A stretch of 64,000 nt of DNA from Streptacidiphilus sp. 4-A2 (GTDB taxonomy: Bacteria > Actinomycetota > Actinomycetes > Streptomycetales > Streptomycetaceae), in assembly GCA_014284505.1 (NCBI GenBank), contig JAAFYY010000001.1, forward strand, positions 7,613,845 to 7,677,844. Direction: 5' to 3'. The translations under genes were made by a program, and so were the position numbers. The notes below the pieces were generated by a model. That model had not been told where the DNA came from and did not search any database. It was given only the letters and a program-made list of their open reading frames with translations. Within the stretch, counting starts at the first letter, position 1. Each line of letters begins with the position of its first letter. Below, in pieces: positions 32,963 to 39,158 of the stretch.

Positions 32963-34782
32963 ATGGTGACGGAAGGCCAGGACGGGCCGGTGGCGGAGCC
33001 CGGCTACGACTACGACGTGGTCGTCGTCGGCTCCGGCTTCGGCGGCTCGGTCTCCGCGCTGCGGCTGACCGAGAAGGGGTACAAGGTCGCGGTGCTGGAG
33101 GCGGGCCGCCGGTTCACCCCGCAGACCCTGCCGAAGAACTCCTGGGACACCCGCAGCTTCCTCTGGGCCCCGGCACTCGGCCTGTACGGGATCCAGCGGA
33201 TCCATGTGCTGAAGAACGTGATGGTGCTCGGCGGCGCGGGTGTCGGCGGTGGTTCGCTGAACTACGCCAACACCCTCTACGTCCCGCCGAAGGCCTTCTT
33301 CCAGGACCCGCAGTGGAAGGAGATCACCGACTGGTCGGCGGAGCTGGCGCCCTTCTACGACCAGGCCCAGCGGATGCTGGGGGTGCGCACCAACCCCACG
33401 CTCACCCCCTCGGACGTGCACCTGCGGGCCTCCGCGGAGAAGCTCGGCTACGGCGACACCTTCCACCTGGCCCCGGTCGGGGTGTTCTTCGGCGACGGCC
33501 GGGACGCAAGCGCGGAGGGCGAGGACGGCCCCCGGGCGGACCCGGGCAGCGAGGTCGACGACCCGTACTTCGGCGGCGCCGGACCGCGCCGCCGGGCCTG
33601 CACCGAGTGCGGCGAGTGCATGACCGGCTGCCGCCACGGCGCCAAGAACATGCTCACCGAGAACTACCTCTACCTGGCCGAGCGCAACGGCGCCGAGATC
33701 GTCCCGATGACCACGGTGCTGCGGATCCGCGAGGACGGCGAGGGCTTCGCGGTGGACGTCCGGGCCACCGACGCCCGCTCGCGCAACCTCGCCAGGAGCG
33801 GCATGCGCACCATCCGGGCGCGCCGGGTGGTGCTCTCGGCCGGGACCTACGGCACCCAGAAGCTGCTGCACCGGCTGCGCGACCACCGGGTGCTGCCGCG
33901 GATCTCGGACCGTCTCGGCGAGCTGACCCGGACCAACTCCGAGGCGCTGGTGGGCGCGCTGACCACCGACCGGCGCTACGGCAGCCGGGTGGACTTCACC
34001 AAGGGGGTCGCCATCACCTCCTCGGTCCACCCGGACGAGCACACCCACATCGAGCCGGTGCGCTACGGCAAGGGCTCCAACGCCATGGGGCTGATGTCCA
34101 TCGTGCAGGTCACCGGTGAGGGCAAGCTGCCGCCGCTGCTGCGGTTCCTGGGCACCCTGGTGACCCGTCCGGATCTGGTGCTGCGGTCGCTGAACAAGCG
34201 CCGCTGGTCCGAACGGGTGATCATCGGCCTGGTGATGCAGTCGCTGGACAACTCGGTGGTCGTCTCGCGGAAGAAGTCCGGCCTCGGCAAGGGCACGCTG
34301 ACCTCGCGTCAGGGTCACGGCGCGCCCAACCCGACCTGGATCCCGGCGGCGGAGGAGTCCGCCCGGTCGGTCGCCGCCGAGATCAACGGCTTCCCCGGCA
34401 GCGTCGCCAGCGACGTGGTGGGCCGCACCCTGACCGCGCACTTCCTCGGCGGCTGCGTGATCGGCGACTCGCCCGAGACGGGGTGATCGACCCCTACCAG
34501 CGGCTCTACGGCTACCCGGGGATCACCGTTGCCGACGGTTCCCTCCGTCTCGGCGAACCTCGCGTCAACCCCTCGCTGACGATCACCGCGCAGACCGAGC
34601 GGGCCATGTCGATGTGGCCCAACAAGGGCGAGCCGGACCCGCGTCCGGCTCAGAACGAGCCCTACCGGCGGGTCGCCGCAGTGGTCCCGGAGCACCCGGC
34701 CGTGCCCGAGGGGGCTTTCGCAGCACTGCGGCTGCCGCTGCTTCCGGTACCCGGCATTCCGCCTAAGTCCCCATCGGCGTAA
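32963..34782 (+). CDS. GMC family oxidoreductase (cholesterol oxidase-like)
   Basis: FAD-dependent alcohol/sterol oxidoreductase; substrate unproven. The ATG at 32963 follows AGGGAGCGACAG. FAD loop YDVVVVGSGFGGSVSALRL, GMC block GGAGVGGGSLNYANTLYV, a four-Cys cluster CTECGECMTGCRHGAKN (possible metal or cluster site), and C-terminal GRTLTAHFLGGCVIGDSPETG then VIDPYQRLYGYPG. About 606 residues. One frame break near 34484. It resembles mycobacterial ChoD, which also sits near guaB3 in mycobacteria, so this is an old neighbourhood. Confidence 0.88.
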
Positions 34783-34859
34783 GCGAACTGAGTCGCTCGT
34801 CACATTCGAGCGAAAGCCTGTCGACGACCCGTTATGACAAGTACATTCCCGATCAGAAC

Positions 34860-34895
34860 CCGCCCGCGCCGACGGTAAACCGTTGTCGCGGGCGG
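34860..34895 (+). terminator. Hairpin after the GMC oxidoreductase
   Basis: Arms CCGCCCGCG and CGCGGGCGG outside, CGACGGT and ACCGTTG inside, one C/T mismatch, two-base loop: a 17-pair stem 77 bases past the stop. Confidence 0.8.
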
Positions 34896-35028
34896 TGTCG
34901 TGTCCGGCGCCGGACGTCGCGGATCCGGTGGCCGGGCGCGCTTCGTACCCGGTGGCCGCCGAACCTCCGGAAGCCCTGAACGCCGTGTGGGGCGAGGGGC
35001 CGGCCGGAGCGGGCGCGGGCGGGCATGC

Positions 35029-35062
35029 CAGAGGGCCCCGTGGGGGAAGACGGGGCCCTCTG
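35029..35062. terminator. Strong orphan hairpin
   Basis: Arms AGAGGGCCCCGT (35030-35041) and ACGGGGCCCTCT (35050-35061), 13 pairs with the flanking C-G, loop GGGGGAAG. No assigned gene ends at it on either strand. Confidence 0.7.
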
Positions 35063-35362
35063 ACGTGCATGCACGCGGCGCCAGGGCAGCGCCGGTGCTG
35101 CGGAAACGGCACCAGGGGGAGGGTGCCGTCGGCCAGTCGGTCGATGGCTCGGGCCGGTGGACCGGCCCGTCGCGTGGTTCGAGCGCTCGCGATGCTTCAG
35201 CTGCCCGCGTGCTTCGGGCGCCCGCGCGGTCGGCGCGCTCGGGTGCTCCGTGCGCTCGGGTGCTCCGGGTGCCTGTGCGTTTCCCGTGCATCGGAGCACA
35301 TGGGGCGCGTGTCGAGCTGCTTGCGCCCCCGAGCTGCGGCGGTGTGCCCATGTCAGCGCCAT

Positions 35363-35383
35363 TTCGTCACGCAACGTGACGAA
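35363..35383. promoter_or_regulatory. Perfect palindrome, candidate operator
   Basis: TTCGTCACG-CAA-CGTGACGAA, nine-base arms with a three-base centre: the geometry of a dimeric regulator site. I do not recognise the regulator. Confidence 0.45.
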
Positions 35384-35496
35384 TATGGCCGCCCGGTCGA
35401 ACGGGGACCGTCCTCGTGGGATCGGCGGCTCGCTGGGTGCCGCAGTGCCTGTGGTCCACCCCCTCACCAGCATCGTGGGGGATACGTACCGGTCTT

Positions 35497-35757
35497 TGCA
35501 AGCAGTTCGCCCGATATCGGCATAGTCGATTTCCCGGACCGGCCGACCGGGATCTTCGGCCGGACGACAGTCACGCTCCGCAAGGAGGCACGGTGGGTAG
35601 CGCGGCGCGACCATGCGCCGGTGGGCGGCCCGCAGGGCGCGGCCGGGCAGCTGTGCGGGGGGCGGGGCAGGTGGGCCCGGCGGGACGAGCGGGCGGGCGC
35701 CCAAAAGCGATCAGGGGTGGTTCGGAGGCCCGGCGTCCCAGGTTCCGAACCACCCCT
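35497..35757 (+). other. Possible small transcription unit
   Basis: TTGCAA (35497-35502) with a TA-rich GCATAGTC about 18 bases on, an excellent ribosome-binding site AAGGAGG (35582-35588) and a GTG at 35593, then a strong terminator (35713-35757). As read, the GTG frame has no stop before the terminator and is Gly/Arg/Ala-rich. Either a frame error hides a peptide of about 40 residues or this is a small RNA. Confidence 0.3.
35713..35757 (+). terminator. Terminator hairpin
   Basis: Perfect 14-base arms AGGGGTGGTTCGGA (35713-35726) and TCCGAACCACCCCT (35744-35757), 17-base loop, followed by TCACTT. Confidence 0.75.
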
Positions 35758-36031
35758 TCACTTCAGTCACGGCCGGGTCGCTGTCCCCTGCTGACCGGCC
35801 GAAGCACCGACGCGAGGTCCCACGACGCGCCGGGATACCGGCACGTCTCATCGCTTCGGCGGACTGTTCTGCACACTCCACGCGTGGTCCTGCCTGCCGT
35901 GCGGAACCCCGGATACGGAAGGGGCGGGCGTACGTCCCTGGCGGAGACACGAGCCCAGCACGGTCAATCGGCACAACGATTCTGCTGACCGGGGGTCACG
36001 CCGGATCGGCCGTGGCGAACGGGTGAAGCGC

Positions 36032-36037
36032 TATGCT
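36032..36037 (+). promoter_or_regulatory. -10 element of the aroQ leader
   Basis: TATGCT ends 7 bases before the leader-peptide ATG, a spacing expected for leaderless transcripts. No clear -35. Confidence 0.5.
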
Positions 36038-36044
36038 GGTGCCC

Positions 36045-36116
36045 ATGTTCGCTGCGGCATACGTCTTTAGCTATGGCACCGGAGGCTCCGGTCGCCATGC
36101 TGATGCCGCCTGCTGA
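36045..36116 (+). CDS. Candidate aromatic leader peptide for chorismate mutase
   Basis: A 23-codon ORF, ATG 36045 to TGA 36114-36116. It opens MFAAAYVFSYGTGGSG and so packs two Phe and two Tyr into its first ten codons, including TTT and TAT, both rare at this G+C content. A self-complementary ACCGGAGGCTCCGGT lies inside it, a strong terminator follows 23 bases after its stop, and then comes the chorismate mutase gene, whose pathway makes Phe and Tyr. The layout fits transcription attenuation. No database match was checked. Confidence 0.6.
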   Translation: MFAAAYVFSYGTGGSGRHADAAC

Positions 36117-36138
36117 ACACCCACGAACAGGCATCGCA

Positions 36139-36171
36139 CAAGCGCCCCGGGCCACTGGCCCGGGGCGCTTG
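36139..36171 (+). terminator. Leader terminator (candidate attenuator)
   Basis: Perfect 15-base arms CAAGCGCCCCGGGCC and GGCCCGGGGCGCTTG around ACT, followed by CTGTTT. It lies between the leader peptide and the chorismate mutase start, so it must be read through for expression. Confidence 0.88.
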
Positions 36172-36217
36172 CTGTTTCCCGGGCCGGAGGCTCCCCGACA
36201 GGGAGGAAACCCCAGCC

Positions 36218-36621
36218 ATGAACAACACCCGACCCGCCGCCGACCCCGCGCCCGCCCGGCCGCCGCCGACCCCGCCGCCCGCCCGGCCGCCGCCGAGCCC
36301 GCCGCCGACTCCGCCAGCGACTCGGCCGCCGACTCCGCCACGGACCGCACCGCCGACCGCACCGCTGCCGTCATCGCCCAGGCCCGCAGCCGCATCGACG
36401 AACTGGACCGGCAGATCATCGCCCTGATCCGCAGCCGGACGGCGGTCTCCGCCGAGGTCCAGGCCGCCCGCATCGCCGGGGGCGGCGCCAGGGTCTCGCT
36501 GGCCCGCGAGCTGGAGATCCTCGCCCGCTACCGGGCCGAGCTCGGGCCCCAGGGCACCGAGGTCGCCATGCAGCTGCTGGAGCTCTGCCGGGGCCGGGCC
36601 GGCGCCGCCCGCACCGCCTGA
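36218..36621 (+). CDS. aroQ: Chorismate mutase, AroQ class
   Basis: Converts chorismate to prephenate, the branch to Phe and Tyr. The ATG at 36218 has GGAGGAAACC upstream. After a Pro/Ala/Asp/Ser-rich N-terminus of about 50 residues comes the helical domain: [52 protein letters not shown]. The Arg and Lys/Arg positions of the AroQ site are visible. About 134 residues. One frame break near 36255 in a GC run. Probably alone in its transcript behind the attenuator-like leader. Confidence 0.88.
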
Positions 36622-36829
36622 GCAGCGCCCGCACACCCGCCCGCGCAGCGCCGCACACCCGCCCGCGCCTGCCGGTACGCCCGCCTGCGCCGGCCCGTCC
36701 GCCGGTCCCGGCGCCGCCGTACGCCCGCGACCAGGACGTCCGCCGATGCCCGGCGGGCGTCCGTCCGGGCGGCCGGTACCATGGGGGCAACCCTTCTTGA
36801 CCCCCACCGCACCGCCGGAAGGCCGCCCA

Positions 36830-38435
36830 GTGGCATCAGCGACCCCCGACCACCAGCCGACGACTCCGGAGTCGGAAGGCGCCGTCCTCGTCGTCGACTT
36901 CGGCGCCCAGTACGCGCAGCTCATCGCCCGCCGGGTCCGTGAGGCCCGGGTCTACAGCGAGATCGTCCCGTCCACCACGCCGGTGGCCGAGATGCTGGCC
37001 AAGCGGCCCAAGGCGATCATCCTCTCCGGTGGCCCGTCCTCCGTCTACGAGAACGGCGCCCCCGCGCTCGACAGCGCGCTGTTCGAGGCCGGGGTTCCGG
37101 TCTTCGGCATGTGCTACGGCTTCCAGCTGATGGCCCAGGCCCTCGGCGGCACCGTCGACAACAGCGGTGCGCGCGAGTACGGCCGTACCGCGCTGACCGT
37201 CTCCCAGCCCGGGTCGACCCTGTTCGCGGGTACCCCGGAGGAGCAGTCGGTGTGGATGTCGCACGGCGACGCCTGCTCCGCCGCGCCTCCCGGGTTCACC
37301 GTCACCGCCTCCACCGGGGTCGTGCCGGTCGCCGCCTTCGAGGACGACCAGCGCAAGCTCTACGGCGTCCAGTACCACCCCGAGGTGATGCACTCCACCC
37401 ACGGCCAGGCGGTGCTGGAGCACTTCCTGTACCGGGGCGCGGGCATCGCTCCCGACTGGACCACCACCAACGTGGTCGAGGAGCAGGTCGCGCTGATCAA
37501 GGCGCAGGTCGGCGACAAGCGCGCGATCTGCGGCCTGTCCGGCGGCGTGGACTCGGCGGTTGCCGCCGCCCTCGTCCAGCGGGCCATCGGCGACCAGCTG
37601 ACCTGCGTCTATGTCGACCACGGGCTGATGCGCAAGGGCGAGTCCGAGCAGGTCGAGAAGGACTTCCGTGGCGGCCACCGGCGTCAAGCTGAAGGTCGTC
37701 GACGCCGAGGAGCGCTTCCTGACCGCGCTCGCCGGTGTGTCCGACCCGGAGCAGAAGCGCAAGATCATCGGCCGGGAGTTCATCCGGGTCTTCGAGCAGG
37801 CCGCCAGCGAGATCGTGGCCGAGGCCGGCGCCGACGGCGCGTCGGTCGAGTTCCTGGTCCAGGGCACGCTCTACCCGGACGTGGTCGAGTCCGGCGGCGG
37901 CACCGGCACCGCCAACATCAAGTCCCACCACAACGTCGGCGGTCTGCCCGAGGACCTCCAGTTCCAGCTGGTCGAGCCGCTGCGCAAGCTGTTCAAGGAC
38001 GAGGTCCGGCAGGTCGGCGCGGAGCTCGGGCTGCCCGACGAGATCGTCCACCGCCAGCCGTTCCCCGGCCCCGGCCTGGGCATCCGGATCGTCGGCGAGG
38101 TCACCAAGGAGCGCCTGGACCTGCTCCGCGAGGCCGACGCCATCGCCCGCGCCGAGCTGACCGCGGCCGGCCTGGACCGCAGCATCTGGCAGTGCCCGGT
38201 GGTCCTGCTCGCGGACGTCCGCTCGGTCGGCGTCCAGGGCGACGGCCGGACCTACGGCCACCCGATCGTGCTGCGCCCGGTCTCCTCCGAGGACGCCATG
38301 ACCGCCGACTGGTCCCGGGTGCCCTACGAGGTGCTGGCGCACATCTCCACCCGCATCACCAACGAGGTCCCCGACGTCAACCGGGTCGTGCTGGACGTCA
38401 CCAGCAAGCCCCCGGGCACCATCGAGTGGGAGTAA
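36830..38435 (+). CDS. guaA: GMP synthase (glutamine-hydrolysing)
   Basis: Makes GMP from XMP, glutamine and ATP. The GTG at 36830 has GGAAGG upstream. Glutaminase domain: [20 protein letters not shown], the nucleophile Cys in [13 protein letters not shown], and the His-Glu pair in [12 protein letters not shown]. The ATP pyrophosphatase loop is [14 protein letters not shown], and the C-terminal dimer domain ends [13 protein letters not shown]. About 535 residues. One frame break near 37665, where a base seems added (VEKDF then [11 protein letters not shown]). Completes the guanine pathway with guaB 15 kb upstream. Confidence 0.96.
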
Positions 38436-38454
38436 CCCTCCCGCACAGCGTCAA

Positions 38455-38493
38455 CAGTGCCGTCACCCGATACTCCCTCGGGTGACGGCGCTG
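38455..38493 (+). terminator. guaA terminator
   Basis: Arms CAGTGCCGTCACCCGA (38455-38470) and TCGGGTGACGGCGCTG (38478-38493), one mismatch (T-G pair), seven-base loop, 20 bases after the stop. Confidence 0.85.
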
Positions 38494-38552
38494 CCGTTTC
38501 CGGGCATCTACGCTGGGGGACGACAAGGATTCCGGGCATGGGAGGAAACCTG

Positions 38553-39158
38553 ATGACCGCCGAACCGATCGACGAGGTTGACCGGCTGTCCATCCCCGCC
38601 TGGCTGAGGCCGCCGATCGATGGCTTCACCACTGACTATTTCCTGAAGATGGACGGCCTCCCGCCGCATACCGAGTTGATCGACGGGAGCCTGGTCTTCG
38701 TGAGCCCGCAGCGGGATTTCCACAGCATCGTGATTGACCTGCTGACGGCGGGGTTGCGCCGGTCGGTCCCCGAGCACCTCCGGGTCCGGCGGGAGATGAG
38801 TGTGGTGCTCAGCGAGCGCAACTGCCCAGAGCCCGACGTTCTGGTGGTTCGGGCTGAGGGGGTCACCTCGCGGGAACAGACCTCTTACCAGGTGGCAGAT
38901 GTGATCCTGGCGGTCGAAGTGGTCTCGCCCAGCTCGGAGGTGCGGGACCGTGAGCGTAAGCCGCAGCTCTATGCCAAAGCGGGTATCCACCACCTCTGGC
39001 GCGTCGAGCTGGGTGACGACGCACGTCCGGTGGTTTATGTCTACGAGCTGGACGAGTCGACACACGCCTACGGATTGGTCGGCATCCACCACGACCGGCT
39101 CAAGCTCGGCTGGCCCTACGCCATCGACATCGACCTCGCCGAGGTGGACCGGCTCTAG
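38553..39158 (+). CDS. Uma2 family endonuclease-fold protein (second copy)
   Basis: The ATG at 38553 is behind GGGAGGAAACCTG. PD-(D/E)XK-fold blocks: PEPDVLVVRAEG, ILAVEVVSPSSEVRDRERKP with Glu and Lys of the site, QLYAKAGIHHLWRVE. 201 residues, intact. The two Uma2 genes are only distantly alike (different spacing around the core), so they are not a recent duplication. TACGCT 41 bases upstream may be its -10. Function unknown. Confidence 0.85.
   Translation: MTAEPIDEVDRLSIPAWLRPPIDGFTTDYFLKMDGLPPHTELIDGSLVFVSPQRDFHSIVIDLLTAGLRRSVPEHLRVRREMSVVLSERNCPEPDVLVVRAEGVTSREQTSYQVADVILAVEVVSPSSEVRDRERKPQLYAKAGIHHLWRVELGDDARPVVYVYELDESTHAYGLVGIHHDRLKLGWPYAIDIDLAEVDRL

Follow-up and report, generated by a model that had tools for sequence, protein, structure and literature searches.

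The window analyzed here, a stretch of 64,000 nucleotides from a 9.05-Mb assembly of Streptacidiphilus, a member of the Streptomycetaceae, carries on its forward strand a short open reading frame, a GC-rich inverted repeat and, beyond them, aroQ, which encodes a monofunctional chorismate mutase (Table 1). An earlier note, drawn from the letters of this stretch, had read the open reading frame and the repeat as a transcription attenuator in which stalling at Phe and Tyr codons raises expression of chorismate mutase. The present study compares the locus with its counterparts across the actinobacteria and assesses that reading.

Table 1. Features of the putative aroQ attenuator, in window coordinates
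Feature	Position	Strand	Basis
-10 promoter element TATGCT	36032..36037	+	sequence; conserved hexamer in relatives
Leader peptide ORF MFAAAYVFSYGTGGSGRHADAAC, stop TGA	36045..36116	+	sequence; F-x-Y-G leader in 108/110 relatives
Core Phe control codon TTT (rare)	36066..36068	+	TTT in 106/108 relatives
Region 1, 5' arm of pause hairpin (1:2)	36069..36083	+	folding; pairing in 39 relatives
Core Tyr control codon TAT	36072..36074	+	TAT in 107/108 relatives
Antiterminator strand GGCUCCGGUCGC, pairs with 36142-36153	36084..36095	+	minimum free energy fold of nascent RNA, ribosome at TTT/TAT
Region 2, 3' arm of pause hairpin; 5' part shared with antiterminator	36087..36101	+	folding; alignment
Region 3, 5' terminator arm, partner of region 2	36139..36153	+	inverted repeat; alignment
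Region 4, 3' terminator arm, followed by CUGUUUCCC (weak U tract)	36157..36171	+	inverted repeat; alignment
Shine-Dalgarno-like AGGGAGGA of aroQ	36200..36207	+	sequence
aroQ, monofunctional chorismate mutase (TIGR01808 / NF005894)	36218..36621	+	profile matches; domain 36364-36621

The leader ORF and its putative promoter

The leader ORF has 23 codons and a TGA stop codon and, as the earlier note described, contains two Phe codons (TTC at 36048, TTT at 36066) and two Tyr codons (TAC at 36060, TAT at 36072), with the TATGCT hexamer ending 7 nt ahead of its ATG. This placement would put the start of transcription at or beside the A of the ATG and so yield a leaderless mRNA. In 101 of 108 leaders of relatives, the ATG that was chosen follows the end of a [TC]A...T hexamer, mostly CATACT, by 6 or 7 nt, two of these hexamers being doubtful cases in which the script took a second ATG; the same choice of a second ATG gives rise to five of the seven misses. 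Such spacing is the geometry of a leaderless mRNA, a layout published for most leaders of Streptomyces lividans (PMC8079986). A consensus sigma-70 promoter scan of positions 35400-37000 returned no promoter at all and therefore cannot place the transcription start; the conserved -10 element speaks for a start at the leader and is compatible with a second start as well. Folding the leader had been proposed as a check, and the 176-nt leader RNA folds at z = -5.5, with none of 200 shuffles equally stable.

Conserved control codons

Among 297 Streptomycetaceae genomes searched, 233 match this mutase at E values up to 0.001, weak matches included, and the 110 loci compared here come from 110 of those 233 genomes, mostly from the top of the match list. 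Kept outside the set were L001, L002, L017 and L018, which are other mutases or duplicates, and eight Streptacidiphilus records (L115-L122), most of which repeat counted genomes. A regular expression for an F-x-Y-G leader upstream of aroQ found one in 108 of the 110 loci, in 0 of 110 when applied to the reverse strand of the same loci, and in 0 of 30 regions upstream of class II DAHP synthase. The two loci counted as misses lack the Tyr codon and bear FTQG (L022) and FSHG (L025) at the same place. In L329 and L330, further loci outside the 110 with weaker mutase matches, the former has a leader with TTC and TAC and the latter has no such leader. The variants that lack Tyr and the mutase of L330, a weak match, count against the attenuator reading.

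When codons are numbered from the core Phe as 0, codon -2 encodes Phe or Tyr in 92 of the 108 leaders, Tyr replacing Phe in 19; codon -1 takes 16 different forms; TTT stands at codon 0 in 106 leaders, the other 2 having TTC; TAT stands at codon +2 in 107, with TAC in the remaining one; and codon +3 is GGC throughout (108/108). The search pattern demanded Phe at 0 and Tyr at +2 and left the choice of TTT and TAT free. Elsewhere in the same leaders Phe is encoded by TTC 117 times and by TTT three times, and the remaining Tyr codons are 26 TAC. Both core codons are rare, as the earlier note remarked: in the 29 long ORFs of the window, TTT accounts for 5 of 172 Phe codons and TAT for 11 of 129 Tyr codons. 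The note had named conservation of the leader codons between species as one of its tests, and the outcome favors its proposal: across species Phe and Tyr are fixed next to a codon that is free to change. The fixation of TAT can be explained in part by the pairing of its third base in hairpin 1:2 (34 U-A and 4 U-G among 39 aligned relatives), an explanation that does not extend to TTT. Differential charging of isoacceptors would not explain the fixed TTT either, since TTT and TTC are normally decoded by a single tRNA-Phe.

A typical leader of the largest genus (g9) is MLTHQTFLFTYGTRPAGCHGRAA (L110), and the distance from the Tyr codon to the stop is 14 codons in 89 of 108 leaders. That the window leader has only two Phe and two Tyr codons, with no tandem run, counts against an attenuator.

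Terminator, pause hairpin and antiterminator

Regions 3 and 4 form the perfect 15-pair terminator stem that the earlier note had drawn, beginning 22 nt past the leader stop; a repeat search extends the hairpin to 16 pairs with a 1-nt loop. In a structure alignment of 39 sequences less than 86% alike, 96.6% of the terminator cells are paired, and 7 of the 15 pairs have changed on both sides, the compensatory pattern for which the note had recommended looking. The covariation score was reached by none of 500 shuffles. These changes fall at the outer end of the stem and in the pairs next to the loop. Region 3 has eight columns that pair also with region 2; two of them do vary and six hardly do so, which is expected if the near-invariant columns serve two helices.

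The pause hairpin 1:2 is paired in 92.6% of cells across the same relatives (slid controls, 25-49%) and the shared core of the 2:3 helix in 96.1% (slid controls, 27-53%). Covariation was sought in both helices in the 39 relatives and none was found, a lack that dual pairing plus coding would explain but that still counts against the attenuator. For the 10-pair version of the 2:3 helix seen in the window, pairing drops to 77.4% of cells and no covariation stands out; at this level of pairing its outer pairs are not general. The sequence CCGGAGGCTCC is present twice in the window, as had been noted, with the first copy at 36079 rather than 36078 and the second at 36184. The second copy, previously taken for the alternative pairing partner, is confined to the window among the 108 loci compared; it is incidental, and we rejected it as a partner. 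The conserved alternative partner instead sits within the leader, at 36084-36095.

The U tract after the terminator is weak, with a mean of 4.7 T in 12 nt (n = 107), and a generic consensus terminator scan, which demands a U tract, missed the hairpin; both points count against the reading. An intrinsic terminator between the leader and aroQ is thus present as a predicted hairpin whose weak U tract leaves its strength unproved. A scan of positions 33000-39000 against Rfam listed no leader family and gave no match above a gathering score, the best hit, sX12, scoring 29 bits where 106 are required; assignment to an Rfam family or a T-box was rejected.

Predicted effect of a stalled ribosome

The nascent RNA was folded as far as region 3 only, with the ribosomal A site placed at TTT or TAT and the ribosome assumed to cover up to 15 nt from the P site. 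The 2:3 helix reaches five or more expected pairs in 109 of 110 sequences when the ribosome stands at the Phe codon (mean 9.6) and in 110 of 110 when it stands at the Tyr codon (mean 9.3). When region 2 and the spacer were shuffled in the Phe state (10 shuffles each), the mean was 3.7, and the real value was higher in 110 of 110 sequences. With the ribosome at the stop codon, the window RNA that is left free folds into the terminator, at -35.0 kcal/mol. In the fold of the window without a ribosome, 1:2 dominates 2:3 (11.7 vs 0.03 pairs). Across the family the ribosome-free state is mixed, the 2:3 helix already having at least five expected pairs in 49 of 110 sequences, and this counts against the proposed switch. 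Taken together, the models predict a mutually exclusive antiterminator that is favored by a ribosome stalled at Phe or Tyr. In 4 of the 110 sequences (L072, L085, L095, and L104) a frame change past the Tyr codon alters the C-terminal peptide and leaves the RNA and the F/Y codons as they are; there, the RNA rather than the peptide seems to be what is selected.

The downstream gene

The domain encoded by aroQ matches NF005894 (102 bits) and TIGR01808 (61 bits), both above cut-off, and its nearest solved relative is Rv0948c (PDB 2qbv, E = 8e-15); these matches identify a monofunctional chorismate mutase of the high-GC type. The chorismate mutase that the earlier note had placed after the terminator is accordingly there as a domain, although the assembly puts the ATG at 36218 in a different reading frame from it, the sole such case among 108 loci. 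Within the stretch where the frame breaks lies a 27-base GC-rich repeat (36244-36297). The break is probably a sequencing indel, and we left the sequence unmended. Further downstream, guaA (window 36746-38485) is apparently split over two reading frames near 37660; this split and an assembly completeness of 76.5% fit an indel-rich assembly.

The genome has a second strong chorismate mutase (PF01817 match), which was considered as a target and set aside; it belongs to another clade (TIGR01795) and has no model match nearby. Further copies of the element in the same genome were likewise discounted: a scan with covariance model R1, in which some hairpin pairs were misplaced, gave 26 matches, of which the other 25 are far weaker than that at aroQ (best E = 1.5e-7 vs 6e-27). 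Four of the weaker ones (L124, L126, L127, and L130) were read and resemble GC-rich terminators that have no leader in front.

Distribution of the element

All other scans used covariance model R2, which was built from the 39 relatives, so that its training sequences stem from genomes of the kind scanned. Within the order, 106 of 119 genomes match R2, comprising 101 of 104 Streptomycetaceae and 5 of 15 others. Of the three Streptomycetaceae without a match, two (G115 and G173) gave no hit for this mutase, and in the third (G219) the contig starts inside the terminator; no genome among the 104 that has this mutase together with its upstream DNA on the contig lacks the element. In 29 genomes mostly chosen because the mutase was absent or marginal, one (G081) has a real element, and the match in another (G059) is a bare terminator. 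In one genus of the family, g14, none of the 21 genomes scanned has a real element, the one match being a bare terminator; in these 21 the mutase search gave only weaker matches for 9 genomes and none for the other 12. Across the class, 26 of 246 genomes match R2, 22 of them in the Streptomycetaceae. Three of the four matches beyond the family precede this mutase or one like it, and the fourth (G419) precedes a class I DAHP synthase.

Similar leaders in other families and on other genes

Leaders before the mutase are found in five loci of another family of the same order, for example MSSRARRFSYGHRIVPAGLVVVR (L180), and also in families f37, f31, f35, and f14, as well as in f21, where they have two aromatic residues only. 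In family f4, 4 of 8 loci (L190-L193) have GTG-started leaders before the mutase, such as VLNMQRRFFYGYRPAVPVV (L190), and the same scan found no leader in the other four (L194-L197). The mutase of L190 is close to Rv0948c (128 bits), which makes f4 probably the Mycobacteriaceae. The four f4 leaders carry RRFFYGYR and are followed by a terminator, and the mutase is Rv0948c-like. Upstream of a chorismate mutase in family f18 (L209), a longer ORF whose end, DHFYQGPGLAPGLPRD, overlies a GC-rich hairpin was seen by eye and may represent a diverged version of this element.

A strict rule requiring a leaderless -10 element, at least three aromatic residues in six and a hairpin of at least eight pairs was satisfied by 96 of the 110 family loci and by 8 of 37 other mutase loci, many of which are weak matches that may be different mutases. 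It was also satisfied by 27 of 60 class I DAHP synthase loci (61 matches, of which 60 were read and G363 was left out) and by 0 of 30 class II DAHP synthase loci; loci L255 and L270, shortened by contig ends, were counted as misses. The corresponding reverse-strand controls gave 1 of 110, 0 of 37, 0 of 60, and 8 of 30. The 27 leaders found among the class I DAHP synthase loci (L220-L249 and L267-L296) come from several actinobacterial families; they are leaderless, contain Phe, Tyr and mostly Trp codons and are each followed by a hairpin, as in MQRNFWRFYGYRPISPVACKALR (L220). A Trp codon falls within the control cluster in 23 of the 27 leaders on class I DAHP synthase and in 5 of 104 on the mutase (Fisher p = 6e-17, an optimistic value, the sequences being related).

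Both genes were read in seven genomes, a small number in which three of the mutase matches are weak, and in none does a leader stand on both. Four of them (G299, G316, G378, and G389) have a mutase above cut-off and a leader on it, one (G349) has a leader on the DAHP synthase only, and two (G307 and G383) have one on neither gene.

On the opposite strand at class II DAHP synthase, the DNA that gave the 8 control hits, a looser rule that required no hairpin found nine ORFs. Eight are from Streptomycetaceae, contain WWW and closely resemble trpL1 of S. lividans; the ninth (L302, family f17) does not. We read the eight WWW ORFs, from their sequences, as true Trp leaders, and the recovery of leaders so like published trpL speaks for the attenuator reading. 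The S. lividans trpL peptide, MFAHSTRNWWWTAHPAAH, closely resembles these opposite-strand leaders. In the genome studied here, the opposite strand upstream of class II DAHP synthase has a WWW leader, MTHDPRTVQHTRCWWWTVPEAAH (L297), that resembles Streptomyces trpL.

Discussion

Given its anatomy, conserved codons, covarying terminator and a codon content matched to the enzyme, this locus is far better read as a Phe/Tyr attenuator than as anything else, and we consider it very probable, from the sequences and the folding models, that the element is a ribosome-mediated transcription attenuator through which the supply of charged tRNA-Phe and tRNA-Tyr governs chorismate mutase. The features looked for in such an attenuator are there: a short upstream ORF with codons for the pathway products (108/110 loci; controls 0/110 and 0/30), a terminator and an exclusive antiterminator, the last in silico only and with no covariation in the 2:3 helix. 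The proposal of the earlier note is thus supported by the fixed codons, the compensatory changes in the terminator and the predicted competing 2:3 helix (109/110 with the ribosome at Phe, 110/110 at Tyr).

Chorismate mutase catalyzes the first step of the Phe/Tyr branch. For the start site, translation, stalling, termination and amino acid response of the leader we infer the following course. Transcription would start at the leader ATG, where a ribosome would begin translation without a Shine-Dalgarno site and trail RNA polymerase. When Phe and Tyr are plentiful, the ribosome would reach the stop codon and cover part of region 2, leaving region 3 free for region 4, and transcription would end at about 36172-36180. 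When charged tRNA-Phe or tRNA-Tyr is scarce, the ribosome would stall at the aromatic-x-TTT-x-TAT codons and cover region 1; regions 2 and 3 would then pair before region 4 is made, no terminator would form, and aroQ would be transcribed. Without a ribosome, both 1:2 and 3:4 would form.

The alternative that survives best is that the leader answers to a single amino acid, Phe, the Tyr codon being kept mainly for RNA pairing. The pairing of the third base of TAT in hairpin 1:2 is consistent with this, as are the position of the fixed, rare TTT outside that hairpin and the C. glutamicum AroR leader, with Phe-Tyr-Phe, which is said in PMC11802643 to answer Phe and not Tyr. However, the mutase supplies both branches, and the 19 leaders in which Tyr replaces Phe at codon -2 do so outside the hairpin; we therefore regard a response to Phe alone as unlikely, though a reading to be taken seriously. 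Far less credible is a nascent arrest peptide that stops the ribosome, the RNA switch then answering to that arrest and not to tRNA charging. Several families do show a recognizable F-x-Y-G or something close to it, but the residues between and before the aromatic ones vary, those conserved past Tyr fall where hairpin 1 has its 5' arm, the C-terminal frame changes in 4 of 110 sequences with the RNA retained, and the Trp content tracks the pathway branch, all of which make arrest very improbable. Hardly better placed, and marginally less probable again, is the reading in which the hairpin constitutively ends transcription of a gene for a small RNA or a small protein and aroQ has a promoter of its own downstream of the hairpin. 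The sigma-70 scan, being unable to place a start, leaves room for it; against it stand the conserved -10 element before the leader, the conserved alternative 2:3 pairing, a codon content that tracks the downstream enzyme and the presence of the element in every one of the 104 Streptomycetaceae genomes that has the mutase with its upstream DNA. Least probable of all is translational attenuation by sequestration of the aroQ Shine-Dalgarno sequence (CUCCC at 36191-36195 with GGGAG at 36201-36205), a hairpin that appears in the fold of the window, since the conserved feature is the terminator with its compensatory changes and the post-terminator sequences differ between those relatives in which they were read.

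A Phe/Tyr attenuator on chorismate mutase would have several near counterparts among known systems. The pheL leader is Phe-only, with long runs of Phe codons and a Shine-Dalgarno start. The aroQ leader, compared with it by description rather than by sequence, differs in its spaced Phe and Tyr codons, its leaderless layout and its monofunctional mutase. What the two share is a leader peptide and attenuation before a chorismate mutase activity, which in E. coli pheL-pheA is that of chorismate mutase-prephenate dehydratase (PMC11802643). Closer in host is the AroR leader that precedes aroF (DAHP synthase) in Corynebacterium glutamicum, which is likewise actinobacterial, has Phe-Tyr-Phe codons and attenuates a gene of the aromatic pathway (PMC11802643 and PMC4046766). 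Likened here by description and not by sequence, AroR differs in controlling DAHP synthase, the first step of the common pathway, and in its reported Phe-only response; the same sources, describing Neshat et al. 2014, state that this leader answers to Phe. The trpL attenuators of Streptomyces trpE have in common with the aroQ leader related hosts, a leaderless leader, a GC-rich terminator and an alternative helix, and differ in their three consecutive Trp codons and in gene and sequence (PMC1262725 and PMC8079986). Leader codons do not always act as predicted: as told in PMC1262725, putative control codons of the Streptomyces coelicolor ilvB leader were without effect when mutated, which counts against the present reading.

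The reannotation of S. lividans TK24 names eight leaders (alaL, ilvL, thrL, trpL1, trpL2, leuL1, leuL2, and metL), which are also short ORFs, most of them leaderless, before amino acid genes; none of the eight lies before chorismate mutase or is described as Phe/Tyr-dependent (PMC8079986), and the words chorismate, phenylalanine and tyrosine are absent from its main text. That published list has no leader here, yet 108 of 110 Streptomycetaceae mutase loci carry one. For the Phe and Tyr operons of Actinobacteria, conserved RNA elements were reported to be absent in a comparative study from 2005, and PMC1173090 tabulates putative attenuators ahead of tyrA operons. The word chorismate is absent from PMC4833913, PMC13236596, PMC4633059, and PMC8914203, the last of which describes 79 premature transcription units in S. 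griseus; among open papers we found none on a leader before an actinobacterial chorismate mutase, and the peptide core FVFTYG had no literature match. The aroQ leader is therefore likely a new, Phe/Tyr example of a ribosome-mediated attenuator, its novelty being not certain.

The similar leaders raise the question of a common origin. Tentatively, and with slightly more doubt than confidence, we suggest a single old actinobacterial attenuator module, kept or moved between two control points of aromatic synthesis. Its core would be a leaderless aromatic-x-F-x-Y-G peptide, a pause hairpin starting at the Tyr codon and a GC-rich terminator. Its Phe/Tyr form would occur on the high-GC type mutase, both in Streptomycetaceae and in several further families, Mycobacteriaceae-like genomes among them; on class I DAHP synthase, in other genomes, it would mostly have gained Trp codons. 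The rare UUU codon, being fixed, would then be a tuned slow site.

If the attenuator reading is true, Streptomycetaceae possess a Phe/Tyr counterpart of the trpE attenuator. The comparison of leaders suggests that codon content follows the branch that the gene serves, be it Trp only, Phe/Tyr, or all three, and the fixed TTT codon offers a clean way to test how the choice of codon matters in attenuators. Many natural products of streptomycetes draw on chorismate, so that the switch would be a practical handle as well.
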